From NCBI RefSeq assembly GCF_028502605.1, contig NC_079237.1, positions 4,006,012 to 4,070,011 on the forward strand: DNA of 64,000 nucleotides, in the 5' to 3' direction. The first letter of the stretch is position 1; each line of letters begins with the position of its first letter. The notes below the pieces were generated by a model. That model ran no database searches, was not told the origin of the DNA, and was given only the letters and a program-made list of their open reading frames with translations. The position numbers and the translations under genes were made by a program. Of the stretch, positions 28,247-62,830 are shown piece after piece. The stretch comes from Trichoderma breve (Eukaryota > Ascomycota > Sordariomycetes > Hypocreales > Hypocreaceae).

Positions 28247-29317
28247 ATGGCCGCGAAGTTATTCCCTACTATAAACCTCAGCCCAGCAATCGCGACGATG
28301 GCTCTGGGCAGCGCCTCAGCTGGTCACTCTCTTCTAGAGAAGATTAGAATCGCTGCATTGCACTCTTTCAAAGGTGTTGAAGTCTATTTTGGGTGTCTTG
28401 AAGCGCATGCTTATGTCACAGCCGGAGTTGTAGATCATCAGAGCTTACTTCAAGCCGCCGTGGAGACCAAGGAAGTTTGCGATCAGAACGGGATTTTTGT
28501 TGTTTGCCTCCAGCCGTTTCTGTTTTTTGATGGTCTTACATCTGATAGTGCACGAATTGATGCGTTTAAGAGACTCAGACTATGGTTCAATATCTCCCAC
28601 GCATTAGGTACTGATCTCATCCAGATACCAACCAATTTTCAGCAACATGACACAACTGGAGACCTAGGCCGCATTGTGGAGGACCTCAAAGAAGCTGCAG
28701 CCCTTGGACTAAAGGAAAGTCCCCCCATACGATTAGCTTACGAGGGAGTCTCATGGGGGACACATATAGACACGTGGGAAACCACCTGGGAGGTAGTCAA
28801 GAGGGTAAACATGTCCAACCTTGGCATTTGTATCGACACGTTCCATATCGCTGCAAGGGTCTGGGGAGATCCAACTTCAGCCTTTGGATGCCTTAAAAAT
28901 GGAGAGGCTGGCCTCACAGCTACACTGGAAAGGATGATACAAGAGCTTAATCCTCAAAAGATTTTTTACATCCAGATTGGAGATGCAGAGAAATTATCCC
29001 CGCCTCTTGGTCCGGGACATGAGTTCTGGGATGAAAAAATGCCACCCAGGATGAGCTGGTCAAGGAATTCCCGATTATTCCCATTTGAGAACCAGGGATA
29101 TCTCCCGATCGGCAGGATTCTTGCTATTCTGGTCCAGCACATTGGTTATTGTGGCTGGGCAAGCATGGAGATATTCAACAGGAAACTTTTTGGTGGAGAC
29201 CCAGCTATCCCAGAGCAATATGCCCGGAGAGCTAAACAGTCATGGGCCCTTACTATACGATTCTTGGAGAAAGAACACGAGAATGATAGAGCGAGGCAAG
29301 CTGTCACTGCGTTGTAA
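28247..29317 (+). CDS. qutC: 3-Dehydroshikimate dehydratase (QutC/QA-4 type)
   Basis: Intronless, 356 aa from ATG 28247; the frame extends upstream only via a TTG. Converts 3-dehydroshikimate to protocatechuate. The whole length matches the xylose-isomerase-like TIM barrel of fungal dehydratases: early LSPAIATMALGSASAGHSL, then KGVEVYFGCLE, then the metal-ligand region LAYEGVSWGTHIDTWE with Glu, then IDTFHIAARVWGDPTS with Asp and His, then YIQIGDAEKL, and late GWASMEIFNRKL supplying the last Glu. Cytosolic. It links the quinate genes to the aromatic-ring genes on the left. No protocatechuate 3,4-dioxygenase gene is present in the window. Confidence 0.94.
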   Translation: MAAKLFPTINLSPAIATMALGSASAGHSLLEKIRIAALHSFKGVEVYFGCLEAHAYVTAGVVDHQSLLQAAVETKEVCDQNGIFVVCLQPFLFFDGLTSDSARIDAFKRLRLWFNISHALGTDLIQIPTNFQQHDTTGDLGRIVEDLKEAAALGLKESPPIRLAYEGVSWGTHIDTWETTWEVVKRVNMSNLGICIDTFHIAARVWGDPTSAFGCLKNGEAGLTATLERMIQELNPQKIFYIQIGDAEKLSPPLGPGHEFWDEKMPPRMSWSRNSRLFPFENQGYLPIGRILAILVQHIGYCGWASMEIFNRKLFGGDPAIPEQYARRAKQSWALTIRFLEKEHENDRARQAVTAL

Positions 29318-36258: not shown

Positions 36259-37542
36259 ATGCAGCGCAGCTCTAAACAGAAGTCATGTTTCAACTGCAAG
36301 AACAGTAAGAGACGGTGTGACCGGACGCTCCCCAGCTGCACCCGATGTATCGACCATGGAGTTGAGTGTGCATATCCCTTCTCGCAGGACCTATCTGATC
36401 GCGGCTCTCTCGATTCCCGGCACAGCAACAGCGGGAGGCAGAAAACTTTTGATGTCCGCTCTACACCAATACAGCCACGCGATGCATTTGACCCAGATGA
36501 TTCATCAAGGATAGCCAGCAGCCACCAAGCTTCTGGATCATCGTCATCGTCGGCGCAAGCCCCGACCATAGTGACCCTCGCCAAATCACACACCCTGTCT
36601 GGTAGGGAATTGAAATGGTTCACACCGCCCTCCACCTGGGTTGTCGTCCATCATTACCACCCGCCTGGTTCTCTGCCATCACCGCAAGTCTTTACAGAAT
36701 TCTTCCGCGGACTTCAGAGATGGCTTGTCCGCTTCCAGAGGGAGGGGCACAACCCATTCATCCACCGCCAGCTGTACCCGCCGCGAGAAATACCAGACTG
36801 TATTCAAGATGCCTATGCTGCCATTGCAGTCTCAATTGGGAGCTCTACTGAAAATCAAAACATGACTGATAGTACAACGATATCATATGCTGAAAAACTA
36901 ATCGCCCAACAGGCTACCTTGGTCAGCCAGCCCCTCAACATAATGACAGCCAAGGACCACTTGGCCCGCACCCAGGCCCTCCTCATCCACCTCATTCTCG
37001 CCGTCTCGTCGGCTTCAATATCCCGTCAGGCTAAAGCCAATGGCTGGATAGAAACTCTCCACCGCTGGAAAACTGAGCTGTTAGCGTCGGCTGAGCAGGA
37101 GTCCAGCCTCGCGCAGCTGTTCCCTTGCGAGCCTGCTCTTGCCCTAGATGGTGCTGTATCGGATACCGATCCTATCCCGGACCTTCATCGGGCGTTTCTT
37201 ATCTGCGAATCAATCCGCCGGACGTGGCTATTATGTTCGGTGTCTATAGGAATGTACCGCAGTCTCAAAGGAGACTGGATCAATGCCTGTGGCGGCGACA
37301 TCTGCTTCACGGCCCGTGCCAGCCTCTGGAGTGCTGCCTCATCCGCCGCCTGGGCAAGTATTGCCAGAACGACGGATCCATTATTCGAGTACAGTCTTCG
37401 CGGAGAAGAAGTAGCAAAGCGAGGGATCCCTGCTATGGAAGTTGACGAGTTCGCCCGTCACATATTCACGCTTATGTGGGGTGCGGACAAGGTTGAGAGC
37501 TGGGTTTTCCGGACCCGACAAGTTCAATCGGCTGGCCATTGA
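36259..37542 (+). CDS. Zn2Cys6 transcription factor near the RiPP cluster
   Basis: Intronless frame of 427 aa. Cluster cysteines at 10, 13, 20, 27, 30 and 37 (SCFNCKNSKRRCDRTLPSC). A Ser-rich linker follows near residues 90-97. The remainder matches the compact C6-factor type often found inside secondary-metabolite clusters, with a middle region around LARTQALLIHLILAVSS and RAFLICESIRRTWLL. Being the nearest regulator to the UstYa genes, it is the best candidate for cluster control. This is inferred from location. Confidence 0.9.
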   Translation: MQRSSKQKSCFNCKNSKRRCDRTLPSCTRCIDHGVECAYPFSQDLSDRGSLDSRHSNSGRQKTFDVRSTPIQPRDAFDPDDSSRIASSHQASGSSSSSAQAPTIVTLAKSHTLSGRELKWFTPPSTWVVVHHYHPPGSLPSPQVFTEFFRGLQRWLVRFQREGHNPFIHRQLYPPREIPDCIQDAYAAIAVSIGSSTENQNMTDSTTISYAEKLIAQQATLVSQPLNIMTAKDHLARTQALLIHLILAVSSASISRQAKANGWIETLHRWKTELLASAEQESSLAQLFPCEPALALDGAVSDTDPIPDLHRAFLICESIRRTWLLCSVSIGMYRSLKGDWINACGGDICFTARASLWSAASSAAWASIARTTDPLFEYSLRGEEVAKRGIPAMEVDEFARHIFTLMWGADKVESWVFRTRQVQSAGH

Positions 37543-37810: not shown

Positions 37811-38979
37811 ATGTGCGCTTGGAGCCCAACAACCGACATGCCAAGCCTCCGGGGCAAGGTCGCTGTCGTAACAGGCGCAAGGTATTTACTTTGAGACAAG
37901 CGGCTCTGTTTGGAAAGACTTGCTCATCAGCTGTAGTGTCGGCATTGGGCTCCAGATTGTTCGCCAGCTCGCGCAGCATGGAGCTAAAGTTTACGCCACG
38001 ACAAGGTCCGCAAAGAGCGCAATGAAGGCGCGAAATTCCTTCCTCCAGTACCCAGAAATCGCTCCTGAAGCGGTGGAGTGGCTACAATTGGACCTGACAG
38101 ATCTGAGGAGCATTACCCAGTTGGCGGAAGAGGTGAAGAAAAGGGTTAGCAGCCTCGACATTCTGGGTAGGTCCCTCGCTTCTATGCAGTCAACCTAGAC
38201 TCACTGGCATGGCAGTCAGCAATGCTGCAACTATCACCACCTCGAAGGAGATCGTAGCCGATAGATGGGAGAAGAACATGGCAGTCAAGTATGTTCCGTC
38301 CTCTAAAATGGGAAATCTTCGCTGACAACCGCTTTCAAGTGTCTTAGGCTCGTTTCTACTCATTGACCGTCTTATGCCTCTGCTCGAGACTACCTCCAAG
38401 CGTTCAGGTGCCGACGTTAGGATCGTGACCATCGCTTCTACAGCTCCAAAAGCCTTCCTCCCTGCCAACTTCCAATTCCAATTTGACTCGGCTGCTGGGC
38501 TCGTCACTCCTGTAACTTGTTATCCCCCGGCCTGGCGTTACTTTCTGAAGTTCCTCTTTGCTAGCGACATGATTCTGTACAGCGTCTCCAAGGCTGGAGC
38601 AATGATCTACGCCTCAAAGATGCAGGAGTTGTTCGACAAGTACGGCCTCAACATACTTTCACTCATCGTTCACCCCGGTGAAGTAGCCACCGAGGGAGTT
38701 GCCGAGGCTAACAATGCCTTCATGCGGATGATGGCCCGCACGTCTTTTATGAGTTCAGAGCAAGGTGCTGCTTCTCCACTGTTCGCAGCTACTTCCGATC
38801 AGATCCGCGCCGACCCAGATCAGTTCAAAGGTAAGCTGCTCATGCCCGTTGGTAAGCCTTCGAGTTTGCATTCCGTGGTAAACGATAGGAAGCAAGCTCA
38901 GGGCCTTTGGGATGTCATGATGAAAGAGCTTGCCCGGCATCTTGAGGCGGATGACCTGGCCCCCATGCGAAAATGGTGA
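37811..38979 (+). CDS. Short-chain dehydrogenase/reductase
   Basis: SDR of 337 aa. Exons 37811-37881, 37937-38166, 38216-38288 and 38340-38979. Splicing rebuilds VAVVTGASVGIGLQIV (cofactor motif, residues 17-32) and LDILVSNAAT (NNAG region). Later YSVSKAGAM gives the catalytic YxxxK, and HPGEVATEG follows. The C-terminal extension (about 60 residues after the core) resembles retinol-dehydrogenase-like fungal SDRs of metabolite clusters. Substrate unknown. Confidence 0.9.
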
Positions 38980-39563: not shown

Positions 39564-40425
39564 TCAGCCCTCAAACTTCTCGGCGTCATGCCCATTACTA
39601 TACCGAAATTTCTCACTCCACTCATACAGCTGTTTGAAATCCCTACACTGATGCACAGTTCCAAAGCCATCGACCCCATTACCTTTAGTACCTCCATCAA
39701 ACGGAGAGCGAAAGGGCTCAAGGGCACTGTCTGCGGCACATAGAATGCTTTCTCGGAGATAATCAAAGCAGTGTAAAGAATGCGCGTCATGCAATTTCTG
39801 GGCTTCGTCATGTGAGAGCTTACCAGTCAGGGCGCGGCGAAAGTCGGCATAAATGAGAAACTGATGGTAAAATCAGAAAAGAAATTGCAAGTCAAGTTAA
39901 CAGGAAGGCTCACGAGACAATGGAGTTGATGAAACGCGGCAACACAGAAGCGCCCTGAACCATCCGTGCTCATATCTTGTACGATCCGAGGAATATCTCC
40001 TGCGGCTTTTATATTGTCCATGGCAACGTAACCCATTCCCGCTGAGGCACAATTAGTATCAGCAATGGCGATTAAAGACAAAACAGCATACGAGGAAACA
40101 ATGACATCCAGGCTTCGCGGCTGGCGTTCATGTCTCGATCAAAGTAAGCACCTCCGCCTACGTAAGTTCGAAGAAGGTTTCCGAGAGGCGGAACGTTCAA
40201 GGATGGAAGAAGTTCTTGTCGCGAAGCACCTCTATTCGAAGATAATAGAAGAAGATTATGGGTAATAATGGTGCCAAGGGCAGAAACAACAACACTGACC
40301 AAAGCGACGATGATGATCAAGCGTCGAGTTGTTCTGCGGCTCTGGCCGTCGTGTTGTGTCATCAATCCATCTTCATCATCTTTGGTGAGAAATGGCACCT
40401 CGTTCTCTGGGACCGAGTCGAGCAT
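39564..40425 (-). CDS. UstYa/DUF3328 oxidase-like protein 1
   Basis: UstYa-family protein of 252 aa. In ustiloxin-type pathways such proteins oxidatively cyclise Kex2-released peptides. Exons 40425-40092, 40041-39914 and 39860-39564. One transmembrane segment at about 36-58 follows a short cytosolic N-terminus. The family signature is present twice: HQLHC (149-153) and HSLHC (181-185), the latter followed by FDYLRESILC. Further family landmark: HQCRDFKQLYEW. The start is ATG 40425; the longer frame begins at a TTG. Divergent to UstYa 2 over a promoter with a triple tandem repeat. Confidence 0.93.
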
Positions 40426-41043
40426 TGCTCCGAATCGCCAAGTGATTGTTGATAGGAGCAAAAAGTGAGTCAAAGGTGAATTCTCTGGCGAAAGCGGGAA
40501 ACCGAGGGGTATTGGAAATGTTGGTCAACGTAGTGATTCTTGACTTCTCCTCAATGATACGTGGGCAATGTCTCGGCATTATTTCTCGTTACCGTACGTG
40601 TAGTTGCTGCGGCTTACTTACGTGATTGCGGCTTACTTACATGATTGCGGCTTACTTACGTGATTGTGCCTTGTTGATAGGGACATATGCTATGCATTTG
40701 GCTGCCACCTGCCTTTCTAGATCAACTATCGACGAGATACATAACCGAAGCCATCAGCCGATCCACATCCTTTCCATGGAACTTTGTTACGATCCCAAAG
40801 GTGTGCGTGTGGACGGATGGGTGGTGCATGCATTAGCTAGAATGCGGTGGAGTGACGGATAGTGTTGGAGGGGGAGGGATCGAGAAGCCAAGTTCGAGTA
40901 ACCTACCCTAACCCCCGCATCTCGAGCTGCCGAGCCATGGCCACAACAAGCCTAAAGGGACTTGACTGCCTCTGTCACTCGACAACCTTTCCTTGTTGAT
41001 GTTTGTTCATTTTCCTTGACTCGCACATGCATCACCCTCTACA
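40426..41043. promoter_or_regulatory. Divergent promoter region of two UstYa genes
   Basis: 618 bases between head-to-head UstYa genes. It contains three tandem 19-base repeats at 40608-40664, listed separately. These could serve both genes. Confidence 0.55.
40608..40664 (+). repeat. Three tandem 19-base repeats in UstYa promoter
   Basis: Units 40608-40626, 40627-40645 and 40646-40664 read tgcggcttacttacgtgat, with a single change (g to a) in the middle unit. Each has a CGG triplet and a TTACGTGA-like half-palindrome, and may be a clustered regulator site. Confidence 0.7.
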
Positions 41044-41863
41044 ATGACAGTGCCAGCCCCGCTTCACACATGTCTTGTCGCATCTTTCTCCTCAGCGGTA
41101 ACCATCATCGTACTTCTTCTCCTCATCCGCCCGGGTTATGACAACATAATCACCACCGTCGTTGATCGCGTACGGGCCCCGCCTTCGGCCGACGTCAGCC
41201 ATTGTCCTCGGCCGAAAGAGTGTCCCGCCCTCACGCCGTCGCAAGAGCTCTCCCCAACCAAGTTTGTCAAAGATCCATGGATGCATCCGATATACAGCCG
41301 AAAGGGCATTTCCAACCAGACAGCTTTTTGGGATTCGCTGCTTACACCAAATGGAGGTTTCCTAATGGTCGACTTGGGCGACCATAGAAACCATAGTGTG
41401 GGGGTGTCCATGTTTCATCAGCTGCACTGCTTAAGCATAGTGTGAGTATTTTTTCATTGCCAGTTGCCCCAAAGTACCTAACTTGATTCTAGTCGAAGCG
41501 TGGTGGTGGGCGGGGGCATGCACAAACATCCCAATGACGGCGGAGGAAACAGCGCCATGGAAGACGATCAACACTTTATGCACTGCTTCGACTACATCGT
41601 TCAGGTGATGCATTCCAGCCAATGCCTTGAATCTCAATCCACAATTCTAATAGAGAACTTAGGCCATCCTGTGCTCAGCTGATGATGCTTTGGAAAACTC
41701 AGTTAACATACTGGACGGTGAGGGCGGGGAGGAGGACGGAATCAACGGAATGGGGCAGACACACAAGTGTCGCAATGCCACAATGCTCTATGACTACGTG
41801 CTGCAGTCCGTGCAGGTCCCCATAAAGCCAGCCTCGCTTGGGAAATATTCTGTATTCTTATGA
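41044..41863 (+). CDS. UstYa/DUF3328 oxidase-like protein 2
   Basis: UstYa-family protein of 236 aa. Exons 41044-41441, 41493-41604 and 41663-41863. One membrane segment very near the N-terminus (about 9-28, with VTIIVLLLLI). Signatures HQLHC at 125-129 and HFMHC at 160-164, followed by FDYIVQAILCSADDALE; the last part appears only after splicing. Landmark THKCRNATMLYDYV near the C-terminus. The region between the two signatures carries a Gly-rich insertion (VVVGGGMHKHPNDGGGN) that the neighbouring paralogue lacks. Convergent with UstYa 3. Confidence 0.92.
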
Positions 41864-42735: not shown

Positions 42736-43971
42736 TTAGGGCGCCTTTTCCCAAACCTTGGAATCTGCTGGCATCGGATATCCAGTTTCTGGTGGAGGTG
42801 CTACCTCATGGTCTTCAATCCACTTAGCCACACTGTCCAGGTCGCGGCATTTATGCACAGTGTTGAAGTTGGCAAAGGGATCCGGGATGTCCTTTACCCA
42901 GTGGTGCGGGATGACGCCGACGTCGGCGCTGCACATGATGTTCTGCCGAAGCATTTCAAAGCAGTGGTCTATATATCTGATTAGCAAGCGATACGTATCC
43001 ATCCATGATAGCAGCGTGTGTGGGTACTCACTGATGTGCACTTTTACGGTAATCGGTCTGTCGTTCAGCCAGGTTGCCCATTTTTTGTTTTCTGGTCTTT
43101 CGTAGTACTCTCGGTGATATGCTTGCCGGATTACATTGAGACACTATCCATATGTCAGCCCGCTCATGGCATGATAGCAACAGCTGCATGGAAAAAGACA
43201 TGTGCTTACATGCATTTTGTGGCTGATCTCGAGGAATCCAATATACCCTCCTCCGTACTCTTCAGTGAACCTGGCAGACCCTTCCAAGTCCATGCCCATT
43301 GCGGCAAATTCGTCACGAGAAAAACTTGCATATTTGACTATACGGATTGTCAGTGAAACTGGTGGGTGAGGGCTGAATGGGCAAAGGCCTCCACGAACCG
43401 AACTTACCAAAACCCCATTTGTTCCATTCGCGGTCCATGGCTTCGTTTGGGTCTCCCCAATGGCCAGTGAACTGCGAATTCTTCCCGAGAGTGCCTGTTG
43501 AGCCGATTAGCTTACCGTCGTGGAGATTGAATATTGTTGGGTGGCTAGGAAATACCGTTGAACTTGACATCATGTAGCTTATTACTGACCTGCTTCATTA
43601 CGGTCGCTAAAACCACGTTAGCATCATTTGCGACATATTGGAAATCTTTGGCAGAACTAACAGTAGGTTGAGCTGTGCCTCATGCATTTCTCGTCAAGAT
43701 GAGGTTGCCATGCCTTTCCAAGCAGAAAGGCTCCAGCTGCGGTAAGAGCCAAGACGCTGACAGCCATGATGATGCTGAAGACGCCAAAGCGTCGATAAGG
43801 GTGGTAGAGAGGGTAAACATCATCCCCTAAGAGAGCACGCGCACCCTCTTGGTCGTCAAGACTATCTTCGTCTGAAGTTCGTAATGACTTTTCAAGATTT
43901 GAGGATGGCACGGCAAAGTATATATGCGGCCGACTAACTAGATCTTTTACGACTTGTCTCCAAGGTCGCAT
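42736..43971 (-). CDS. UstYa/DUF3328 oxidase-like protein 3
   Basis: UstYa-family protein of 306 aa, the longest of the four. Six exons: 43971-43662, 43606-43556, 43494-43408, 43337-43210, 43143-43032 and 42968-42736; total is a whole number of codons and each junction restores family sequence. One transmembrane segment at about 66-88 (VFSIIMAVSVLALTAAGAFL). Signatures HKMHC (189-193, formed across an intron) and HINHC (228-232, also formed at a junction), followed by FEMLRQNIMCSADVG. C-terminal landmark VHKCRDLDSVAKW. ATG 43971 is used because the upstream extension begins at TTG. It flanks the precursor gene on its left. Confidence 0.92.
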
Positions 43972-44982: not shown

Positions 44983-45498
44983 ATGGTTAAATTTACATCC
45001 GCCATTGTCATTGCCTTTGCGGCTTTGGCCACCGCTGCACCTACCAATGACTACCCCAAGTACGGGAAATTCGGGGAGTTTGAAGCTGTCAACAATGAGA
45101 AGCGAACCAACGACTACCCTAAATATGGAAAGTTTGGAGAGTTTGAAGCTGTCAACAACGAGAAGAGAACCAACGACTATCCCAAGTATGGCAAGTTTGG
45201 AGAGTTCGAGGCTGTCAACAACGCGAAACGAACCAACGACTACCCCAAATATGGAAAGTTTGGAGAGTTCGAGGCGGTGAATAATGAAAAACGAACAAAT
45301 GACTACCCTAAATATGGTAAATTCGGGGAATTCGAGGCTGTTAACAACGAAAAGCGAACCAACGACTATCCTAAGTATGGCAAGTTTGGAGAGTTTGAGG
45401 CCGTCAATAATGAGAAGAGAACAAATGACTACCCCAAGTATGGAAAGTTTGGAGAGTTTGAAGCTGTCAACAACGAGAAGCGTACGGATGCCGAGTAA
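44983..45498 (+). CDS. Secreted multi-copy RiPP precursor with Kex2 sites (UstA-like)
   Basis: Intronless frame of 171 aa: signal peptide (residues 1-19, FTSAIVIAFAALATAA), then seven tandem 21-residue repeats from residue 21 (45043-45483), then a tail TDAE. Each repeat is TNDYPKYGKFGEFEAVNN plus Glu-Lys-Arg (Ala-Lys-Arg in copy 3). Lys-Arg is a Kex2 cleavage site, so seven near-identical 19-mers would be released in the Golgi. Each carries two Tyr and two Phe that UstYa oxidases could cross-link. The layout matches precursors of the ustiloxin, phomopsin and asperipin class, but this repeat is unlike their published cores as I know them. The core boundaries and any cross-link are not visible in the sequence. 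A plain secreted repeat peptide is the alternative, less likely with four UstYa genes around it. Confidence 0.92.
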   Translation: MVKFTSAIVIAFAALATAAPTNDYPKYGKFGEFEAVNNEKRTNDYPKYGKFGEFEAVNNEKRTNDYPKYGKFGEFEAVNNAKRTNDYPKYGKFGEFEAVNNEKRTNDYPKYGKFGEFEAVNNEKRTNDYPKYGKFGEFEAVNNEKRTNDYPKYGKFGEFEAVNNEKRTDAE

Positions 45499-46174: not shown

Positions 46175-46961
46175 ATGGCGCTGTCTTCGTATGTTCAACT
46201 TGCCCATCGCCCATAAGCAAAGGGTATTCACTGACTAATACAGCTCGACCTCTTCTTCAGATCCATTCATAGCCAATGCTGAAAAGCATGGATATTCGAA
46301 AATCAAGACCAGTGACGATGAGGAGGCCGAGCTTTACATACCTCGTGCTCGGCAAAGTAGTCGTCTTCTCACAGTCCTGTCGTACGTTGTCAAGCTCGTC
46401 ATAGTGGCCATGGCCGTGTATGGCCTCATCACCATGGGAATATCTGCAGTAGTCCGACTCCGAAAGGCAGCAGTGCCGCCATGCAATTGCGGCTCGTCCA
46501 TCGCCGAGGCACTCACTCTTGATTGCAAATACGATTCACTATCCACGTCCTGGCTTCCACCACATTGCCGCGACGACGAAATGACTTCCCTCTTCGAAAA
46601 ATCTGGGCCTGGCCCAAATGGCCAATGGAACTACTACGCTTCCAACTTGAACACGTCCAAAGTATTCACGATCGAAGAAATGGCGCTCATGGCGGAGAAG
46701 CCCGACTCGGAACGACAGGCATGGGCGACGATAGAGTGGCATGACAAGCATTGCTTCTTTACGCTGCTCAAGCAAGTGCGAGGCAGGGCCAAGATGCAAT
46801 ACACGGGATTTCCGAGCGGAACGGCACACGCAGAGCATTGTGCCATGGGCATGGCCGAGCGCCGTCCAGGAAAACAAATTGTTGTTTCAATGAACCCCGG
46901 ATTTGGAGATGCAAAGCCCGGCGAGTTGAAGATGATGATAGTGCACATGGGGCACCAATGA
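46175..46961 (+). CDS. UstYa/DUF3328-related protein 4 (divergent)
   Basis: Protein of 243 aa. Exons 46175-46188 (just 14 bases: MALS plus two bases) and 46244-46961. Cytosolic N-terminus rich in Ser and charged residues, one transmembrane segment at about 50-73 (YVVKLVIVAMAVYGLITMGI), then a lumenal domain starting with paired cysteines (PPCNCGSS). It has HDKHC at 171-175 and HAEHC at 200-204, fitting the double HxxHC rule, but the surrounding sequence (EWHDKHCFFTLLKQ) belongs to the divergent branch of the family. It is in the same orientation as the precursor and may be a structural partner rather than a catalytic copy. Confidence 0.85.
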
Positions 46962-49397: not shown

Positions 49398-50801
49398 TTA
49401 GCCATCTAAACTTGGCTTTCTCATATACAAGGTTTCACCACGAACTGGTCGCAGCTCCGTCTGGCTATCACTCCCCTGTATTGTTGCTTCGTTGGTTGCG
49501 CCATGCTGCCATGGTCTTGATCGTGACCCGCCAGTGCCTCCAATTGTAGCCACAGAATATTTGTTCGTCGTTCGCGTCGTGTTGGCTTTCTTTTCCTGAG
49601 GAAACGGAAAGCCGGCAACGTGGCTACGATCATGGATACGGTAGACTCGATGTGCGACCACATGCTCAGCAGCACTGGACCATTGGCGGTTGTGGTAGGA
49701 TCCTCCGCCGAGTCACCCGTAGCTTTCGTTACTTGAACAAGACGCACGAGTGCGATGGCGACGATGATGGCACCAAGGGAGAAGAGGATGGCCAGCCCGA
49801 ATGTGTGTGGTCGCGAGATGGTCAAGTTTCGCAAGAGGTGAAGTGGGAGAATCATGGCTGTGATGATGGCAAAAGTTTGTTAGTCAAACTGCGTACTATG
49901 GATGATCTTGCGCGTCACATACTTAATACGTCTGCGACAATGTCGGTACTCGTCGCAAACTTGATCGACGCATCGGCCCGGAGTAGGTCATCCGGTAAGC
50001 TGCAGCCAGCTATTAGTGCATCAGTTGGTGGTTCTTGGTCTCTTGTGGAATAATGCAGGGATAATTTCGTTTGTGACCTACCTGGGCTCCAATATCGGTA
50101 TAATGGCGAGCACGTCAAAAAGTTTGAGAACATGCAGGCCAAGTAGAGGGTGAGGACGGCGGCGAAGCAATTCCACCACTAGCGTATGTAGTTGGGTAAA
50201 CCGTAAAAGAGCCGTCTAATAAACCACAGAATAAAGAATTTAGCTATGACACTGGTATTAGTCTCGGTATTGGTAGTTTGGTATAGCTGTCCTCGATAGT
50301 CTAGTGAGGAGACCATACCTGCCCACAGGGTTGTCCAGAACAGCAGCATCTGGCTGAACATTAACTTCAGCGACATAACATTCCGGGCTGTCATCTCGTC
50401 CGCGGGTAGGGGCGAAGGTGTCTTGGGATTTGCCACGAGGGCTTTGCTGTACTCGGCTATAAGGAACTACTGTGGTAGGATCCTCGTGATAAGTGCCGTC
50501 AAAGCTGTCAAGCTTACAAGGCCCGCGAGGACGAAATAGTCATCTCCGTGCAGTCGTCGCTGAAGTCGCCATTGGAAGATAACTCGGAATGCAGTTATGC
50601 CAACTGCAACGCCCCATAACACCCAGATGAGGACCTGCGAACAGCGTCAGCGTCAGAGTAAGACAGCAAAACTTGTACGTGGAAAATAGTCAGTGAGATT
50701 GCGGTGGTGAGATTTGCCTCGATAGGCTTGTTCAGACCTTACACAGGCCAGAAGAGCAACCTACGTACCATCATCTCCGTGTAATTGGGAATGGACGCCA
50801 T
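49398..50801 (-). pseudogene. Broken gene for a fungal multispan integral membrane protein
   Basis: Start MASIPNYTEMM at 50801. Later coding blocks match one known type of fungal multi-helix membrane protein: VLIWVLWGVAVGITAFRVIF, DEMTARNVMSLKLMFSQMLL, FFILWFIRRLFYGLPNYIR, CMFSNFLTCSPLYRYWSP, DASIKFATSTDIVADVL, FGLAILFSLGAIIVAIALV and SMWSHIESTVSMIVATLPAF. Damage: in-frame TAG after RILPQ (about 50471-50473) and after NYIR (about 50180-50182), and a frame change near 49590-49600 between AFRFLRK and TTNKYSVATIGGTGG. Each stop could be hidden by an unusual intron, but three faults together suggest a dead or dying gene. The family resembles PTH11/SAT4-like proteins. Confidence 0.7.
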
Positions 50802-51651: not shown

Positions 51652-53253
51652 ATGGGTCGCGTATTTCTCATCGCCGCATGGCTGCTCGCATGCGCCGTTC
51701 CTCATCACGGTGCATGTGCAGCAGCTACTGGTCCTGTTTCTGCAATTGCTGGTTCTCAAAAAATTGCGTGCAAGCTCTTGAGCCTCACACACCCAGACCA
51801 TACCTTTTTTGAGGGCTCCGACAACTACAAGTATGAAACACAGACGCAGTACTGGTCGTCGACAGCCTACAACACACCAGCATGTGTCTTTGTGCCTCAA
51901 AATGCCCAGCAGCTCTCTTTCGCGGTGACCACGCTGACGCTGACTTCGACTAAATTCGCGGTTCGCAGCGGTGGTCATATGCCTGTCCAAGGCTATAACA
52001 GCATCGGCAGCTCGGGCGTGTTGCTATCCAATTCCAACCTAAGCACTCTCGCTTTGTCACACGATCATGCTACCGTCTCTGTTGGGCCAGCCTACCGGTG
52101 GAGGGACGTTTATTCGTATCTGCAGCCCTACAACCTGACGGCTGTTGGAGGTCGTGTCGGCCATGTTGGAGTTGCTGGTTTGCTGCTGGGAGGCGGCATT
52201 TCATTTCACTCGAGCCAATACGGCTTCGCTGCTGATAATGTCGTGGCATACGAGACCGTCCTCTCCAGCGGTCTCATTGTGGTGGCCAAAGCAGATAATG
52301 CCTATTCGGACCTGTATTGGGCTTTGAAAGGTGGCGGCAATTCCTTCGCTATTGTCACGCGTTTTGATCTCAGGACCGTTCCGTCTCCCGGCGTCTGGAT
52401 TGGAATCGCGCAGTATAACGAGACCGACAAGGACAAGTACCTCGATGCCGTCTACAACTTTGGCAAATACGGATCCGCCGACAGCAAGGCCGCCATCATC
52501 CCTACAATCGTTGGTTACCCCAGCGTTGGAATGATTGCTTACGCGGCATCAAGATTCTACGACTCCTTGACCAATTCTCCTACTGTGTTTGAGAACTTTA
52601 CGTCGCTCAAGACTGTGGCTGATCAGTACGCGTTTGGGGCCCTTGCTACATATATCAGTGCCGTTGACGCACTGCAGCCCAATGGACTTCGCCAGGAGTA
52701 AGTTTTGACTCTCTCTTCAGTCAACCGCGTGTCATGGACGCAAGCGCTAACTTGATACTTTTACAGCTTCCGTGTTGCGTCTTTCATGGTCAATCGTGAA
52801 GGTCTTTCCACTGTGCACGACACATTTTTCGGAGACGCCAACTCGCAACTAGCAAACATTGCTGGATTGACTGCTTCCATTACCTTTCAGCCCGTCACCA
52901 AAGGGTTTATTGAGAATGGCCGCAGTCGTGGCGGCAGCAACCCCCAAGGCGTGGATGCTCACAATGCCCCCTACTTCTGGATCGTGCAGAACCTGTCCTG
53001 GCAGAACGCTGGTGACGACGACACGGTGCGGGCTTTTGCCAAAGCTACCATTGCCAAGATTGAGGGAACCATTACTTCTCATGGCGTTGCTGGCAGCTAC
53101 TTATATATGAACGACGCGGGAGATGGCCAACCTGTGTTCCAGAGCTATCCAAGTGCCAACTTGAGGCGCCTCAAGGATATTCGGACTAAATATGATCCTT
53201 TTAGGATTTACACTAACCTCCTGGTTGGCGGTTGGAAGGTCTTGGATGCTTAG
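51652..53253 (+). CDS. Secreted FAD-linked (BBE-like) oxidoreductase
   Basis: Protein of 510 aa. Exons 51652-52697 and 52767-53253. Signal peptide at about 1-25 (FLIAAWLLACAVPHHGACA). FAD-binding type 4 domain with RSGGHMPVQG, in which His109 should link FAD covalently; the second, cysteinyl attachment seen in bi-covalent members is absent (the region reads GGRVGHVGVAG). Closing YDPFRIYTNLLVGGWK is the BBE-type end. Such enzymes oxidise alcohols, sugars or carbon-nitrogen bonds with O2 and are frequent in secondary-metabolite clusters. It lies about 6 kb from the precursor. A role in the RiPP pathway is possible but unproved. It is the last intact gene before the AT-rich subtelomere. Confidence 0.93.
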
Positions 53254-54052
53254 AAACGTTGATTGTGACAAGCTGAGCTCCTATATGGTTAATATAGAAG
53301 GGATTCCTAAGGGATAAACTTTATACTAAGTTTATATTAGCGGATAAGCTAGGCTAAATTAATAAGTAATTAATAAAAATAAAGGTTTTATTTATATAAT
53401 TAGTAAATAATATATTTATATTATAATTAAGTATTATTTTATATTTATAATTAATTATTTACATTTTATTTTAAATAAGTATTATAAAATAAATATATAA
53501 TATAAAGCTTACTTAAGTTTATTTATTTTAAAATAAATTAGTTTTTTAATTAAAAAGTAATTTACTTTAGCTTATTTATTATTATATAAGCTTAATTATA
53601 ATTAATTTATTAATTTATTATAGTTTTAGGTAATATTTATTTTATAAACTTTATTATTATAATTATAAATATATCAATTTATAATATAATTATTATAACT
53701 TACTTTAGTAATTTTAATAAAAATATACTTTATTTCCCTTTTTTTATTAATTAACCCCTATATATCTTTCCCCTTGTTTACTATTGTAAAATATCCTCTG
53801 TTACTAATTTTACTTTTTTTTAATATAAAATTTAAATAAAAACAGCTTTTATTTTTAACTTATACTTTATACTATAGGCTAATTATATTTTTACTTTTTA
53901 ATAAACCTTTTTTTTTATATTTAACCTTTAGTTTTTTAAATAAGCTTTATTTCTTTATTTAACTTTTTAAAAAATATTTAAAACTTTATTATTAAAAAAA
54001 AAAAAGAATTTAAAAAAAAAAAAAATAAAAAAAAAATATTAAGTAGTAGTAG

Positions 54053-54102
<50 letters not shown>

Positions 54103-55220
54103 TTATTTTTTTTTTAATTTATAAATTAAAAAACTTTATATTTTTTTTTTATTTATAAATTAAAAAAACTTTTATTTTTTATTTTTATTTTACTTTTTTC
54201 TTTTATTATATTTTATAATATAAAAAAAAAGCTTTATTTATTTAGTTTTTATTTTAATAAGCTTAAATTTATTATTATATTTATTTTTTATAAATTTATT
54301 ATTATATAAGGTAAATATTAATTATATTTTATTATACCTTAAGGAAAAGTATAAACTTATATATAAGGTTTATTATAAATTTAATTAACTTATTTAATTT
54401 TTAAATATATTAAACTTAAGTAAATTATTACTTAAACTTAATAGCTTTAAAAAATACTTTTATTTTATAATATAAAAAAAAGTTATTTATAAATATTATA
54501 TATTTAAGTTAATAAACCTAAAGGTTTTTTTATAATACTTAAGGTAAAAATATAAATAATAAATTACTAAGTTTTTTAATAAAAGTAATTAATTATAAAA
54601 TTATATTTATAATAAAATCTTTTTTTAAAGTTAATTTATTAATAATATATTATATTTATAAAAAATTAATATAAGCCTAAAGTTATAGTAGTTAACTATT
54701 ATAATATTACTTAATTATATAGTTTTTATAAAAAAAATATTTATTTATTTATATTTATTATAACTTAGCTTTTATAGTTATAATAATACGTCTATAGGGT
54801 AGTTTAATTTAAATAAATATTAAACTAATTAACTAATTAAAAATAAATTATTAAATTATTATAATAATCTAATAATTTATAAATAGATTATTAAAATTCT
54901 AAGATAATTTATAATTAAATTATTACTACTTAGTAATAATTTAGCCTAGCTAACTAAATATATAAGTTTACTTTATACTACTTATTAAAATACTTAAATA
55001 ATTAATTATTATTAATACTATAGTATTTAAATTAAATACTTAAATACTTTACTTTAGAAGCTAGTAATAAAATTACTTATTTATTAACTTAATTACTTTA
55101 CTAATATAAATTATAAAACTATTCTAAGGTTTATCCCTTAGGAATAATTAACTTATAATACTTATAGGACCTAGTTTATTATATAATAATAACTTTTATT
55201 TAAATAGTTACTTTAGACCT
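53254..55220. other. Extremely AT-rich, RIP-like subtelomeric DNA
   Basis: Almost only A and T, with poly-A and poly-T runs and a (TA)n tract at about 54056-54098. No coding frame. Strong depletion of CpA/TpG and excess of TpA is visible by eye and fits heavy RIP of a former repeat. Confidence 0.75.
54056..54098. repeat. (TA)n microsatellite
   Basis: About 20 uninterrupted TA units within the AT-rich block. Limits approximate. Confidence 0.8.
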
Positions 55221-55340
55221 AACCGAGAGGCCGCTGGTAGTTTGGGCCAAACTACCAGCTGACATAAGCAGGTTGGTATACTGCCATTGGCTAAAATAGA
55301 AGTAGAGCAGGTAGCCAGGGTAGTAAACTACCACTTCCTA
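55221..55340. repeat. GC-richer island with perfect palindrome in the AT block
   Basis: About 120 bases of ordinary composition inside the AT desert. At 55234-55258 the arms ctggtagtttgg and ccaaactaccag flank a single G: a perfect 12-base inverted repeat. Could be a transposon end or other escaped segment, just upstream of the helicase relic. Confidence 0.5.
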
Positions 55341-55799
55341 AACTACTAGTTCCTATAAAAAATTATATTTTCAGTTTAGTATAAATATAGGTTTAGCGGA
55401 AATAATCCGAAAGAATAAAAAGTAATACTTATCTATCTAACTTATACACCCGTTTAACTACTAATTTTATCTACTTATTTTATAAAGGGGTAGTTTAGCT
55501 TAACTAGCTGTTTTATTTATTAATTTAATTAATAATCTATTTATTTATACCTTTTTATTTATTTATTTTTATCTTCCTCTATAGCTATAATACTCTAACT
55601 ATTTACTAAACTTATGTAAAAGGGCACTTTACTAAAGCTCTTTACTAATTTTCCACAAAAGGTCTAGTAAATTAGTAACCTAACCCCTATATACTACATA
55701 CGCTAACTGTTTTTCTTAATCTTATATATATATATATAAATATATATACCTATTTATTTATTATTTACTTTTATTAGGTTATTTTACCTTCTACTACAG

Positions 55800-58700
55800 T
55801 TATAATATTATAACTTAATAATACCTAACCTAAACTTAAGGTAGTTAAAGATAAAAAAGGTATATAGTAAGGATTAGTTATAGGGCTAAAGGTTGCTAAA
55901 ATAAAGGAAGCTGCAGAAGATAATGTTAGCTAGTTAATATATTACAAAAAGTATTAGTATCTGGTATACTAGGTCTATAGATATACTTTACTTAGCCTTA
56001 AAAGCTACCTTAAATACTAGCATAAAGATATTAAAAGAAAATCCTAGGAAGCTATTATAGTAAGGTACTTTTAGCTAAATTTACAGCAGCCGCTAGATAA
56101 TAATTTCTATTACAGCCTGTTAAACTTAAGATTACTTATTAAAGGTATATTAATACTTAATGAATAAGCATACAATTACTGCAGACTTCTTACCCTAAGC
56201 TAGAAATAGCTTAAGGTATACTATAATAAAAAACATAGTATATAAGGTAAAATACTAAAGGAGCCTATTATAAAAATATAAATACTTTTTACAGGGCCTA
56301 AGTAGGCTATCTATTACTTCTGTATTACAGCCTCTAGTACTACTGCTAACAGGGACGTAGGTGTATATAAAGGTATAAAGCAGCAGCTTAAGATAGAAAA
56401 GGAAGGTAGGGTAAAGTACTACCGCTTAAAAAGAGGAGGATAAAATAACCTAGAGTACTTAGATAAAATAATTAACAGAATTAAAAAGCAGTAGGTATAT
56501 AATTAAGGCTAATAGGAAGAAATACAGAAGGTTCTTGCCAATAGGGCTGTAAAGTATAAAATTACTAACTAGCTAAAGTATTCTAGCTAAACCGCCTATT
56601 TTATAGGCTAAGATCTAGGTAAAATCTACCTCTACAGCCGTATACCTAGTTTAAAAGATAACCAACTATAGAGGTTAGTTACTGCCGTTAACTAAATATT
56701 TTTTAGCTGCTATATAACTGGTTTTAAAAGTATACCCTTAATAGTAAGGCTACTCCTTACTAGCCCTTACTTAAAGGATACCTACAGCTAGTTGTTTAAG
56801 CTGCTATAGGAAAAGATAAGTATAGATTAATATCTAACGTACTAGAAGAGGTTCCTATACTATTATATAAACGTTCTTTTGCTGGAATTAGATATATTAC
56901 TAAAGAAATACAGCTTTAGTTTTACTAGTGGCTAAAGGTAGGGCCTTAAGACGTTATAAAAGTACCTGCAGGATGGTAATTAGTAAGAAAAAGATTTAGA
57001 AAAGGAGCTGCTTTAGGTATTAGTTAGCTTTTAAATATAGTATTTAAATAAAGACCTTTTTACTAACCTACTTTAGTATTTTATTACTATCCTAAGTATT
57101 AATGGTAAGTCTAAATAGCTTAGGCTAGCTTACCTCTTTATATATATTTTAGCAGGTATAGTATATATTAGTAGGGCGTTACTAGCGGAGTATACTATCC
57201 TAACCGCTTAGCAACCTAGTATAAAGGACCTTAAGAGGCGCTTTACCTAAGTCTAGGATACTTAGCTATATAAGGTAATGTACTTACCTATAGGCTATAC
57301 GCTTAGCCTACTTCTCTATAGTTATAAAATTACAAAGGAAACGGGCAGCTGGCTAATAGTATCCTAGAGTAAGTAGGGTAACTTAATATACTTTATAGAG
57401 AAGCTAATCCCTATAGATACTATCTGGGCTATAGTATATAAGATAATTATGAATACGGAAACTTTACTTTAGATAGAGCTAATATTTAAAAAAAGAAAAA
57501 GTAATAGAAATAATAACTATTTTATAATACCGCTGGCTAATGTTAAAGATAACTTAATGTAAATATAGCGGGGCTAGTTTTTTATATATATTAACAGTAG
57601 CTTAGCTGAAAAAGAAGGTAAAATATTAAAGGACCTTGTCTACGGAAACCGGAGGTAAAACTTCTTAAATAAAGATAGCTACTGGAATTAGGAAGGTATC
57701 CGAAAGTATTTAAAAAGCGTAGACTAATTTAAGGAGCTATTTATACTATTAGTACACATAGGGGGAGGTACTTTAGCATAAGGTAATAAACTTAAAGGCC
57801 TGTATTAAGTAAACGGTATTAATTATAACTGCAGTATATTTATTATTAATAGTGAAATAGTAACGGTAATGCAATACTATAAGTTGCTAGTATACTTTAA
57901 TTCTCTAAAGGTTATACTACGCTTCTTACTTCCTTAAGTTGCCTAACTTATAGTAATATACTTTATATATATTAGACTACTTACCAACTACTAGGAGGTA
58001 AAGTAGTAGGCCTTATATAGCAAGACGAAACCGCTAAGTAACTTTATCTAGTATAACGAAAATAGGCCGTAGGATGGAACCCAAATATTAAAGGTAATGG
58101 TAAAGTAGTTTTATTATTATATAGGCCGTAGGATTACCCTACAGGATTAGCAGTATATTATAATTACAATTAGCAAAAAGTATACTCGCTAGCGTAATAC
58201 CGCTAGGGTAAACTTCGAAGAAGATAATAACGATAATAATAAGGTAGAGTAGTATAAAATACTAAACGACTTAGCCGCTGCCTATATAACTAAGACGGCC
58301 GCTAATTACAGTATTACCATTAATATACTTAGGCGTTTAACTACTAAATCTTTTAAGATATTTAACTAGGTTAGTTATTAATAGTATAAATTCCTTAAGC
58401 TTAACTAGCTATTATTTAGGCTACTACTACTGCTATTAAAGTAAGAGGCAGAGGCTAATATTAAGCTGCAAATGCCTTAGCCTTTAAAATAAGCTAGGGT
58501 TATATATTTAAAAAAACAGAAACTTAGTTTAGGGTAGGACTAGCTTATACTAAAAACTTTATAGGCAGTTTTTTAAAATAATTATATAAGGTTTTATATG
58601 CCTTAGTAAGAAAAAGCCATATGGATAGCTGCTGTAAAAGTAATACTGCTAGTTACTATTTTTTCTACTAATAGAGGAAAAAGCTTAATCTTTATAATAT

Positions 58701-60361
58701 TAGCTATATTAACCGGGGCCGGAGTTATTATTATAGTAGCGCCTTATACTAAGCTTAAGAGGTAGCTTATTACGTACTACCTTAATATAAGCATTAACTG
58801 TAAGCATTAGCCACAGGTATATAACTCCTAGCCCTAGGTTGTAATTATTTCCGCAAAGGCTGCTATAGGTAATAATTTTATATAGTAGGCAGCGGATTTA
58901 AGCGTCCGGGGGAAGCTGGACTATATAGTTATTAATAAGTATTATCTTATATTTACTACCGCTTACAAATACTAAAAAAAGCTTTAAAGATTAATATATT
59001 TACGCAGCCTAGGTTACCCCTTTATATTTTTAACTAGTATACTACTGCCGTTTACTTAGCGTAACTTTAAGGAAGCTATATAATTATAGTATCCCCTTTA
59101 TATTAAGGCCTTAAGCTACTGTATAAATATCTATTACTTAATTTTATAGATTTACAATAGGTATAGCTTAATAAAGGTTAAGAAGTTAGTTAAGGCTTAG
59201 GCTAGCTTACTTACGCCTAAAGAGAAAGGCGTAGTTTACTATATAAGCTATATAAAATATAAGGCATTAGCTTAGTTAATAAGCTACTACTACTACTACA
59301 GCAACTTAAATAAAGGCAGTAATATACATTTCCTCGCTTAGTAAAAATCTAGTTTCTAAGCCTAGCTCTAAGGTAAAACCCTATATATTATAACTATAGC
59401 TGCACTAGGAATAGGGATTAATATACTAAGTATAACGTATATTATCTACTTTAAGGTATCGTATAGCATTATTAACTATATATAGAAGGCTAATTATATA
59501 GGAAAAGTTAAAAAGTATATAGCGGCTGTGATTGTAGTTAAGGAGAAAGACTGGCTGTTTAAAGATTTAAGGATAAATAGCTGCTTTAAGATAAAAATAC
59601 GCAAGGTAAACTTTTTAATTTAGATAAAGAGCTGCTGGAGGTATATTTTTAGCTAGTACTTAGATAATAATACTTAGGACTGTAATTAGATTAAGGACGT
59701 TGTATTGTGTAATAACTACTAGCAGTAGTAAATAGCTTAGAAAAGTAAGCTTTTAGCCTAGGGAATTATTACATTAGTAGTATACAGGCGGAAGGTAGTA
59801 TATAGTCTGGAATAATTAAAGGTAGTACTTACTAAAGTATAAGAGCTAAGGAAAATAGTATATTAGATCTACTAGATGTTTAAAAAAGCATAAGCTATTA
59901 AATATAGCTAATATAATTACAGCTAACTTTAAAAATCTTTTACATTTAAAAAATATATAAAGTTTTAGTATAAAGTAAACTATTAGAAAGATAGATAAAC
60001 TAAGTTTTTTAGCTACTTTTATTACTATATCTCTTAAAGTTTTTACTTAAATAGCTACTAGATGCAGGGGTTTTAGTATTAGTAGAAATATATAGTAATC
60101 TTAGTAGTATTTACTATTTATTATAATAAAGGCCTCTGGGGTTAGGTATAAGGGCTTGCTAAGCGGGAGTTATATAGGCAGCAGGAGTATATAAGCTAAC
60201 TAGGCTATAAATACAGTAGGCTTATTTACGGGTAAGAAATAACTAACGTAATAGTAGTATTTAATCTAGTATTAAATTAGCGTATAAAGTAGCGGATTAA
60301 GTAAGTTTTAAATATTTAATATATATAAACTTACTTTAAGCAAATTCCCTTTAGTAAGTAA
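55800..60361 (+). pseudogene. RIP-degraded telomere-linked RecQ-type helicase
   Basis: A single plus-strand frame can be followed from about 55895 (AKIKEAAEDN) through 56351 (RDVGVYKGIKQQL), 57323 (YKITKETGSW), 58640 and 58928 to a stop at 60359-60361, interrupted by dozens of TAG/TAA codons. Recognisable helicase blocks: STNRGKSLIFIILAILTGAG at 58664 (Walker A region), VAPYTKLKR, the DExH box position at 58934-58945 now reading NKYY, FLTSILLPF (motif III), GVVYYISYIKYKALA, and ALGIGINI (late motifs). Changes are the G-to-A and C-to-T transitions typical of RIP; CAG/CAA to TAG/TAA makes most stops. This matches subtelomeric helicase genes (TLH type) near telomeres of many fungi. Non-functional. 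The 5' limit is approximate. Confidence 0.8.
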
Positions 60362-61470
60362 AATAATATAACGTATAAATAATTAAGCTAATATATAGGG
60401 TAAACTAGTCTAGGCTATAGTATATTCTAAAGATATATACATAAGTATATTAACTATACTTATTTATATATTATATAAGAGAATAGTAAAGAATATAGTA
60501 ATTATTAATCTTTATTATTTATATAGCTAGTTCCTTATTTTATAAACTTAAAGTAAATATATAAAAGCCCGACTTACAATCATTAATATTATTCTAGTTT
60601 TTAACCCAGTTACCTTTTATTTATTTTTAATTTTCTACGAAAAATATCCTAATTATTCTCTTCTTTATTATAACTAAGATTCTCTTTCTCTTTCTCTTTC
60701 TCTTTCTTTTTCTTTTTCTCTTTCTCTTTCTCTTTCTTTTTCTCTTTCTCTTTCTCTTTCTCTTTCTCTTTCTCTTTCTCTTTCTCTTCCTTATTTTTAT
60801 TCTTATTCTTAATTAATTCCCTAAAAGAATTTAGTATTATAATCTTTAGCCTTACTACTTAGTATATACACAGTTTCAGTAATATAAAGCTAATGCAATT
60901 ACTTTTGCTTATATACTAAAGATTAGCTACTAACTTTATTTTATAAGAAAAACTATATATAATAAGATAAAGGACCTAAGGATTTAAACTATATACTTTA
61001 TAGCCACTACCTCTTTATTTATTTTACTTAGCTTGGTTTATATTACTACTAAAGCTTACGTAATATATATTATAGGTTCTTTTTCGAAAAGACTAAGTTA
61101 CTTAGTTAGTGTATTAATACTCTTAGCTAGTAAAGTAAGGTTTAGTTTTATTTTATCCTAGTCTAATATTATTTTTAGTTACTATGCCCCTAAATAAAGA
61201 TTAAATAAAAGTTTTATTTATAATATAATATAAATAAAAAGGAGGAGTATTATTAAAAAAAGAAGAGAAGCTAGGTAGTAGCGTTTTATAATAGATGTCT
61301 TAGATAAAACATATAGCAACTTAAGGTATATATAATAAAATACAATAGTACTTAAATAATATTTAGCAATTAGTAAGTAAGTTATACCGTAATTAATTAG
61401 TGTAGTTAATAGTTTATAAATAGCTAGGATAGATAGCTTAAGCTTTTGTATTATTAAAGTTATAATATAA
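60362..61470. other. AT-rich region with pyrimidine microsatellite
   Basis: No gene seen. Holds the CTTTCT tract listed next. The rest is RIP-like AT-rich DNA. Confidence 0.5.
60681..60788 (+). repeat. (CTTTCT)n pyrimidine tract
   Basis: About 108 bases of hexamer-based CTTTCT/CTTTTT units, pure pyrimidine on this strand. The absence of purines would itself protect it from RIP on this strand. Confidence 0.8.
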
Positions 61471-61479
61471 CAGCCTGTT

Positions 61480-62830
61480 AAAGTAAGATAAAAAAGGAGG
61501 AGGGTTATTTATATAAATACCTATTATAAAGCTAAATAATAAATAATATCTCTGCCTATAACCCTATTTTCCACTAAAAGATTATTTACTTCCTAAACTT
61601 AAATAAATTACTTTATATATTTATAGGATACCTTAGTAATAATATTACGTAATTCTAAGTTAAAATTATTTATTAATACATAAACCTTATAGACGAGAGC
61701 TAGGAAGGTAAAAAGGTCTTTAATATTTAACTACCTCTCTAGGATAATAGTATTAAATTTACGGAGGGTAAGTTACTTTAGGTCGGGGATATTATAGTAG
61801 TTAGTAAGTATATAGACTTTTGTATATAGTAAAAGCAGAGAGATATAAGGAAGTAAAGCAGTATCTTTCTTAACTGAATTAATATAATCTTTATTAAGAG
61901 AAGGTAAGGGATTATCCTTTTCTTAGTAATAGTCCGTAAACTTATAAAGTAACTGCGTAACCTTAGAAGGATAGTAATTATTAAAATAAAGGAATTAAAG
62001 AAGGTAGCTAATAGTTTATGGGTAGTTAAAGGAGAGGTTAAAGGTTTTAGTATAAAGGTTAATAGGTTGTTAGGTAGGAATTAAGGTAGCAGAGGTATTA
62101 GGCTAATGTTCCTACTTAAGATTATAAAAGAAGAGAAACGGGTTAAAATAGTAGTAGTCGTAGATATAGTGTAAGGTATATTAGTAATTATTAGTAATAA
62201 TAAGTAGTATATCTTAGATTATAGGGATTTTTATGTATTTAACAGAAGGGTTTATTTTATTAAGATATATAGTAGCTAATAATAGTATACTACTTTTATT
62301 TTATTTCTATATAGCTAAAATAAAGCTTAGTTAAGTAAAAACTGCTGTTTAAAATTCGCCCAGTAGTCTGTTTATACTTTTATAATTTAATTGAAAGTAG
62401 CTATATAGCTACTAAAACTAGATTTTATAGTTCCAGCGGGGAAGGACTAGTATTAGGTAATATTCCTAGATATACTATTTAGGCTAACTTTAGAAATAAA
62501 AAGCCGAATATTAAACTAGCTCTTTAAGCCCTTTATAACTAGCGCTATTATATAAATAACCTCTTACGTTAACCAGTTGGTACCTGCTATATTCCCCTCT
62601 TTATAAATTTTAATAGTTAGCTTTTCTAGATTATTATATCTAAAAAGGTACTGTAGCTGCTTTACTATTTCTTCGCCCTCCTTCTTAGACTTTTTATTTA
62701 AACTATGAGTTATAATAATAATAGTAAGGTCCTGGATTAAGCTTACTACTAGCCTAGGAATACGCATAGCCCTATTAGTACTATAAAGGAAGTTATTAAG
62801 TAATTCCAGCTGCACTATAAACTAGTTATT
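61480..62830 (-). pseudogene. RIP-degraded ORF of unknown identity
   Basis: The only open piece is 62564-62815 (minus, 83 codons from a TTG or CTG-like start), with AMRIPRLVVSLIQDLTIII and KEGEEIVKQLQYLFRYNN. The frame goes on leftwards past RIP-type stops (GNIAGTNWLT, then EVIYIIALVIKGLKELV). It looks like a degraded protein-coding gene, but I do not recognise the family. Confidence 0.35.

Follow-up and report, generated by a model that had tools for sequence, protein, structure and literature searches.

What does a fungus make from a gene that spells out nearly the same tyrosine-containing peptide seven times, within a few kilobases of four HxxHC-type genes? This question is raised by a Kex2-processed repeat precursor (KEP) of Trichoderma breve (Table 1), found in the window, meaning the whole 64,000-nucleotide stretch analysed, which forms one end of a 4,070,011-base contig in the 38.5-Mb genome and carries telomere repeats at 63927-63996. 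The cluster sits just inside an AT-rich subtelomeric stretch (53300-63996, with a 2-kb block of 17% GC) that runs into these TTAGGG-type repeats.

Table 1. Features of the precursor locus and candidate KEP-like open reading frames (ORFs) elsewhere in the T. breve genome.
Feature	Position	Strand	Details
Zn2Cys6 transcription factor (PF00172)	36259..37539	+	possible cluster regulator; end uncertain
Short-chain dehydrogenase (PF00106)	37937..38979	+	possible cluster member; start uncertain
UstYa-1	39564..40425	-	252 aa; three exons in our model; PF11807 E 1.1e-24; HQLHC and HSLHC
UstYa-2	41044..41863	+	236 aa; three exons in our model; PF11807 E 2.7e-18; HQLHC and HFMHC
UstYa-3	42736..43971	-	340 aa; four exons in our model; PF11807 E 1.2e-36
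KEP	44983..45498	+	171 aa; single open frame; from sequence and relatives
Signal-peptide-like region	44983..45042	+	MVKFTSAIVIAFAALATAAP, residues 1-20; read by eye and by lineage comparison
Seven 63-nt/21-aa repeats	45043..45483	+	TNDYPKYGKFGEFEAVNN(E/A)KR; from TRF and unit starts
Repeat unit starts	45043, 45106, 45169 (AKR), 45232, 45295, 45358, 45421	+	
Tail	45484..45498	+	TDAE and stop; from sequence
Conserved partner	46175..46961	+	243 aa; exons 46175-46188 and 46244-46961; CxCG...C...CRD region; HDKHC and HAEHC
FAD-linked oxidase (PF01565)	51652..53253	+	possible but weakly supported member, at some distance
KEP-like ORF, paralogue locus	C2, 7.10 Mb		repeat AGDEAWKEANL
KEP-like ORF, paralogue locus	C6, 3.20 Mb		repeat TAVDPTNNQAGWG
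KEP-like ORF, paralogue locus	C6, 3.31 Mb		repeat DTVVPDKQHYDKR
KEP-like ORF, paralogue locus	C3, 3.50 Mb		repeat CNIPWTKNYGEYDEKR
KEP-like detector hit	L024, 573-1103	-	repeat DKLQNLFYVPAGAEGE(S/T)PEKR
KEP-like detector hit	L020, 7998-8519	+	repeat GGGCGYYGKR

The precursor and its repeats

The precursor has exactly the coordinates, strand, frame and copy number given in the initial annotation, and TRF returned a period of 63 with 7.0 copies; with seven near-identical repeats spaced by KR, the gene goes well beyond the three that define a KEP. Glu-Lys-Arg had been placed after every repeat, which holds for six of the seven copies, whereas the third ends in AKR; the last copy runs directly into the tail. 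Read by eye, the start of the protein fits a signal peptide, and its pattern is conserved among relatives. Across the copies, 22 of the 63 nucleotide positions vary, 21 of them silently and one with an amino-acid change, against a silent share of 18.8% expected for single changes in the repeat (binomial tail 1e-14, positions taken as independent). The repeats are therefore neither chance nor a recent DNA duplication: the peptide is kept constant while the DNA drifts, and because nearly all of the variation is silent, the peptide is under strong selection.

Genome-wide, the precursor has a single match (E up to 0.001), and no annotated T. breve precursor protein was returned by two protein searches for its relatives. 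An NCBIfam himA match was dismissed (18 bits against a cut-off of 120). Matches to a P-domain proprotein convertase (P_proprotein) occur at one place in the genome, and this convertase, the KR-spaced repeats and three PF11807 genes nearby all support the earlier proposal that the gene encodes a repeat precursor of Kex2 type and belongs to a UstYa cluster.

Relatives of the precursor in distant fungi

The core, unrecognised at first, is no orphan but a member of a family with the consensus TN[DSG]Y[PI][KG]Y that occurs in six lineages. The two protein searches yielded seven proteins (P0001-P0007), among them a four-copy precursor with the same repeat as T. breve in Trichoderma SZMC 28011 (P0001, model marked partial), P0002 from Trichoglossum hirsutum, P0003, and P0004 from Rhypophila, of whose start P0005, a 57-residue piece, is a near-identical version. 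P0006 and P0007 were set aside as precursors, as neither displayed a signal peptide or KR-spaced repeats by eye; P0007 (113 aa) carries the core-like LNDYPGYKGIET four times, yet without KR sites. Two further precursors came from the partner search described below, fused within P0015 of Annulohypoxylon stygium and P0022 of Xylaria telfairii, public models that look like mis-fused precursor and partner genes. Taxonomically, Trichoglossum belongs to the Geoglossomycetes, Rhypophila to the Sordariales and Trichoderma to the Hypocreales, and Annulohypoxylon and Xylaria are Xylariales.

When the first repeat from each of the six lineages was compared over positions 1-16, T1, N2, Y4 and Y7 were the only invariant positions. 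Position 5 is P in four lineages and I in two, position 6 is K or G in three each, position 8 is G in four of six, and an aromatic residue (F or Y) occupies position 13 in all lineages but one. F10 is not conserved. The two Xylariales relatives carry NSYIGYG and NGYIGYG, and so a Y-I-G, or YIGY, within the core. Y4 and Y7 are not the sole constrained part of the repeat, since its tail, [GE][ED][FY]E[AS][VA] or [ED][FY]E[AS][VA]N, is common to five of the six lineages, Trichoglossum being the exception; the same five share the start pattern MVK[FY]...AAP, which in Trichoglossum reads MLKL...ATP.

UstYa genes and other neighbours

Four UstYa genes had been reported within 6 kb of the precursor. 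Three are confirmed by PF11807, and all four HxxHC-type genes lie even closer, at gaps of 0.68, 1.0, 3.1 and 4.6 kb, but the fourth is PF11807-negative and only remotely related to UstYa. The precursor thus has three genes above the DUF3328/PF11807 cut-off beside it, one of the features that define dikaritins, and in our gene models nothing else intervenes between these and the precursor. In UstYa-3, HKMHC is followed by YIDHC, in which the first His is replaced, so that one of the four motif histidines is missing. The promoter common to UstYa-1 and UstYa-2 holds three tandem copies of the 19-bp unit TGCGGCTTACTTACGTGAT (40608-40666); a search of the cluster promoters for Zn2Cys6 palindromes and common 9-11-mers gave no convincing shared motif.

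At greater distance from the precursor there are genes for a Zn2Cys6 factor, a short-chain dehydrogenase, a GNAT acetyltransferase, a fungal rhodopsin-domain protein and an FAD-linked oxidase, whose membership in the cluster is possible at best or doubtful; our own gene model fuses the dehydrogenase to the Zn2Cys6 gene upstream of it. The rhodopsin-domain membrane protein (49421-50801) is about 4 kb from the precursor, and a receptor role for it is only a thought. The genome's only PF00264 tyrosinase matches are on contig C4 and its only S41 peptidase match on C2, with none of either on the precursor's contig.

Elsewhere in the window, 21502-29317 holds a quinate/shikimate-type group with a repressor-like protein that combines shikimate kinase, dehydroquinase and shikimate dehydrogenase domains, together with a transcription factor, a shikimate dehydrogenase-like protein and a xylose-isomerase-like TIM barrel. 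Genes of aromatic-degradation type occupy 2212-12478 (intradiol dioxygenase, FAD monooxygenase-type protein, FAD-linked oxidase).

A conserved partner gene outside PF11807

The fourth HxxHC-type gene, hereafter the partner, encodes a protein identical to T. breve T069G_10171, our splice model being the same as the public one. The protein (P0008) had no match in Pfam even at E 10, did not reach the curated PF11807 cut-off, and had no match in NCBIfam; among solved structures, a sequence comparison up to E 1 matched nothing and a fold comparison gave no match either (best E 4.1). With its database relatives it forms a family of 31 proteins, which shows an invariant CxCG...C...LP..CRD region followed by WHxxHC and then HxxHC, both motifs being present in 30 of the 31 (the exception, P0033, is short). 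Structurally, the AlphaFold (AF2) model (mean pLDDT 81.6) begins with an extended helix at residues 44-81, near the N-terminus, which from its hydrophobicity would span the membrane, and places the two motifs on successive helices (168-183 and 197-209). The partner therefore has the UstYa layout of HxxHC(x)nHxxHC behind an N-terminal membrane helix, the helix as modelled and its membrane span as predicted.

Profile comparison points the same way. Against just the three window UstYas, hhalign gave 50% (E 1.6e-4), and against a UstYa-only profile of this genome 89% (E 2.3e-6 for one comparison) with both motifs aligned. An initial value of 92.5% (E 4.7e-7) was discarded in favour of this one because the first UstYa profile had absorbed partner-family members; ten column-shuffled controls, run against that first, partner-containing profile only, gave E 0.13-0.98. 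Single-sequence scores with the UstYa-only profile were weak (12.5 bits for P0008, 22 bits for the best family member), and eight of the 31 proteins matched PF11807 weakly (best E 1.2e-4), the T. breve protein not among them. On these comparisons the partner is a remote relative of UstYa.

Co-inheritance of precursor and partner

The partner accompanies this type of precursor in T. breve and five further lineages. Consecutive locus tags on contigs of equal length establish the pairing in Rhypophila (V8F33_012884/012885) and Trichoglossum (GP486_002006/002007), fused models in Annulohypoxylon (P0015) and Xylaria (P0022), and a presumed common contig in one case (partner P0012 and precursor P0003, each on a contig of length 103531). 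Evolutionarily, all six KEP-linked partners fall within one 18-member clade (support 95/95) of a 36-sequence tree of the 31 family members and five T. breve paralogues, rooted for drawing only; the paralogues lie outside this clade, where several branches are very long. Of the neighbouring genes, the partner alone is shown to be co-inherited with the precursor, and the pair is either old or has moved as a unit between lineages.

Paralogues and other KEP/UstYa loci in T. breve

Five partner paralogues were found in the T. breve genome (E up to 1). A PF11807 match lies no more than 10 kb from four of them, yet the stretches that are this close to such a match, as derived from 35 of the 46 UstYa segments, amount to 1.05% of the genome. 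At each of these four loci there is also a candidate KEP-like ORF, its repeats unrelated, at about 3, 3, 6 or 12 kb from the paralogue; around the fifth (C6:887030), the nearest 700 kb contain no UstYa and the nearest 15 kb or so no convincing KEP. Because four of five paralogues are near UstYa genes and KEP-like ORFs, the branch looks as if it accompanied KEP pathways in general, one of its members being specialised on TNxYxxY.

The 46 UstYa segments form 18 loci when 35 of them are merged at 10 kb. Our KEP detector gave hits in eight of 21 10-kb stretches (L018-L038) and in the window, and two hits in 96,203 bases of control: L041, lysine-rich and taken as false, and L039, a real-looking KEP that is no true control because it adjoins the C3 UstYa array. 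Candidate KEP-like ORFs with unrelated repeats thus occur at nine of the 17 UstYa loci outside the window (L018-L037, L039), and from these detector hits T. breve seems rich in KEP/UstYa clusters. The C3 array itself (C3:3495100-3524800; L039, L021, L022) contains many UstYa segments and one partner-family gene, and at its edge lies a KEP-like ORF with at least five copies of the CNIPWTKNYGEYDEKR type.

Proposed biosynthesis and alternative explanations

We posit that the gene is the precursor of a fungal RiPP, Kex2-processed, then oxidised and probably cross-linked between Y4 and Y7 by copper-type UstYa-like enzymes, an account that we consider probable though well short of certain. The signal peptide would direct the precursor to the secretory pathway, where Kex2 would cut after each KR and a carboxypeptidase trim the K/R to release seven TNDYPKYGKFGEFEAVNN(E/A) peptides; the cleavage sites themselves are present in the sequence. 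Membrane-anchored lumenal enzymes with double HxxHC motifs, of copper type like CctR, would then oxidise the repeats: first the partner and probably also UstYa-1 to UstYa-3, all four being adjacent. The likely target, to judge from conservation, is the Y4-x-x-Y7 pair, which may receive an oxidative side-chain cross-link. Repeat residues 11-18 would either be recognised by the enzymes and trimmed afterwards or stay as part of the product, and maturation may leave less than the full 19-mer. Because Y4 and Y7 are invariant and F10 is not conserved, a Y4/Y7 modification appears better supported than a general Tyr/Phe cross-link; position 13, aromatic in five of six lineages, is still a possible site.

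One alternative concerns which of the four enzymes take part. The partner alone might serve the precursor, with UstYa-1 to UstYa-3 belonging to a neighbouring pathway; co-inheritance speaks for this, and so do the many places in the genome at which UstYa genes cluster, but the three UstYas all lie within 4.6 kb with no gene modelled between them and the precursor, and we hold the division somewhat unlikely. Another concerns the type of oxidation. An HxxHC enzyme does not by itself mean cyclisation, since CctR is a C-H hydroxylase and the DUF3328 reactions listed in the available text of PMC12435403 are halogenation, hydroxylation, macrocyclisation and isomerisation; the peptide might accordingly be hydroxylated, dehydrogenated or halogenated on its side chains and stay uncyclised. 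Two invariant Tyr three residues apart argue against this, as do the UstYa-linked KEP products ustiloxin, phomopsin and asperipin-2a, described in the excerpted PMC7329392 as rings closed at Tyr, and we judge such an outcome unlikely.

Improbable, in our estimate, is the release of the repeats as linear, signal- or effector-like secreted peptides, with the UstYa-type genes acting elsewhere. Linear KEP peptides are well known, 6120 of 7878 KEPs have no DUF3328 gene nearby (PMC7329392, in excerpt) and most of the 19-mer is conserved in five of six lineages, but an HxxHC gene of one clade goes with the precursor in all six lineages having an identifiable partner (in one by presumed common contig), and Y4 and Y7 never vary. 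That the precursor is a ustiloxin/phomopsin-type dikaritin is so improbable that we reject it, for although the signal-like start, Kex2 repeats, PF11807 genes and the Y-I-G of the Xylariales relatives would suit it, the T. breve core is YPKY and not YxIx, and tyrosinase and S41 peptidase matches lie on other contigs, outside the cluster.

Returning to the cross-linked RiPP, we further propose, tentatively and as a possibility that we would not yet call probable, that an old co-inherited precursor-enzyme pair constitutes a fungal RiPP subclass of its own, ranging over the Geoglossomycetes and three orders of Sordariomycetes. Its TN-x-Y-x-x-Y precursors would be served by a dedicated branch of double-HxxHC copper oxidases, missed by Pfam, that link Y4 to Y7 with the repeat tail as a built-in recognition segment, and related branches would serve unrelated KEP cores. 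If so, KEP pathways would have in the partner family a marker of general use that has been overlooked. More broadly, T. breve probably makes an undescribed modified peptide, because a Tyr repeat precursor adjoins genes of cross-linking type, and relatives of the precursor and of one such enzyme are paired in distant fungi.

Comparison with known systems

The core of asperipin-2a, FYYTGY, differs from ours but likewise has several Tyr, and as here no tyrosinase is known from that system. Its cluster in A. flavus has no peptidase gene in the account available from PMC12048977, a further likeness to the present locus, and it has 8-residue repeats and one DUF3328 gene (PMC7329392, in excerpt), whereas in T. 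breve the repeats are of 21 residues, the PF11807 genes number three and an HxxHC branch of its own is present. The dikaritins (UstA, PhomA) resemble our system in the signal peptide, the tandem Kex2-cleaved Tyr repeats and the adjacent UstYa/DUF3328 genes. They differ in their YxIx core and 13-14-residue repeats, as given for ustiloxin and phomopsin in the same excerpt (PMC7329392), which bears out the earlier claim that the repeat is distinct; in T. breve the core is TNxYxxY, the contig has no tyrosinase or S41 match, and the conserved enzyme lies outside PF11807.

CctR, a DUF3328 protein, binds two copper ions per chain, mapped to HxxHC(x)nHxxHC as a binuclear site, and has been proposed to reside in organelle membranes with a lumenal orientation (PMC12435403, available text). 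The partner shares with it the N-terminal membrane helix, as predicted, and two HxxHC motifs on neighbouring helices, and by analogy with CctR, a copper oxidase that faces the lumen would suit a precursor that is secreted. In contrast to CctR, the partner family has the invariant CxCG-C-CRD region, the T. breve protein falls below the PF11807 cut-off, and its substrate would be ribosomal.

No paper on the repeat or its relatives was found in the text of the open-licence literature (figures and supplements lying outside that text), and the available portions of PMC7099791, PMC6339444, PMC12048977 and PMC10989895 do not mention this type of precursor. The form as such is already known: a KEP beside DUF3328 genes is common, with 1758 of 7878 KEPs having such neighbours and Tyr in 65.6% of the repeats from these KEPs (PMC7329392, as excerpted). 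Few KEP/UstYa clusters have known products. The T. breve precursor has the same genomic form, with the difference that its partner does not belong to PF11807 and might go undetected when genomes are screened for DUF3328; should the partner family prove a general KEP enzyme, screens by PF11807 alone would miss pathways, and the family could locate unannotated precursors. As a minimal conserved unit from Trichoglossum to Trichoderma, the precursor and its HxxHC enzyme make a good pair for testing enzyme function. Three things set the T. breve system apart from the known ones: its core is other than YxIx, its precursor family is conserved in fungi that are only distantly related, and it has a dedicated branch of enzymes unrecognised by Pfam.
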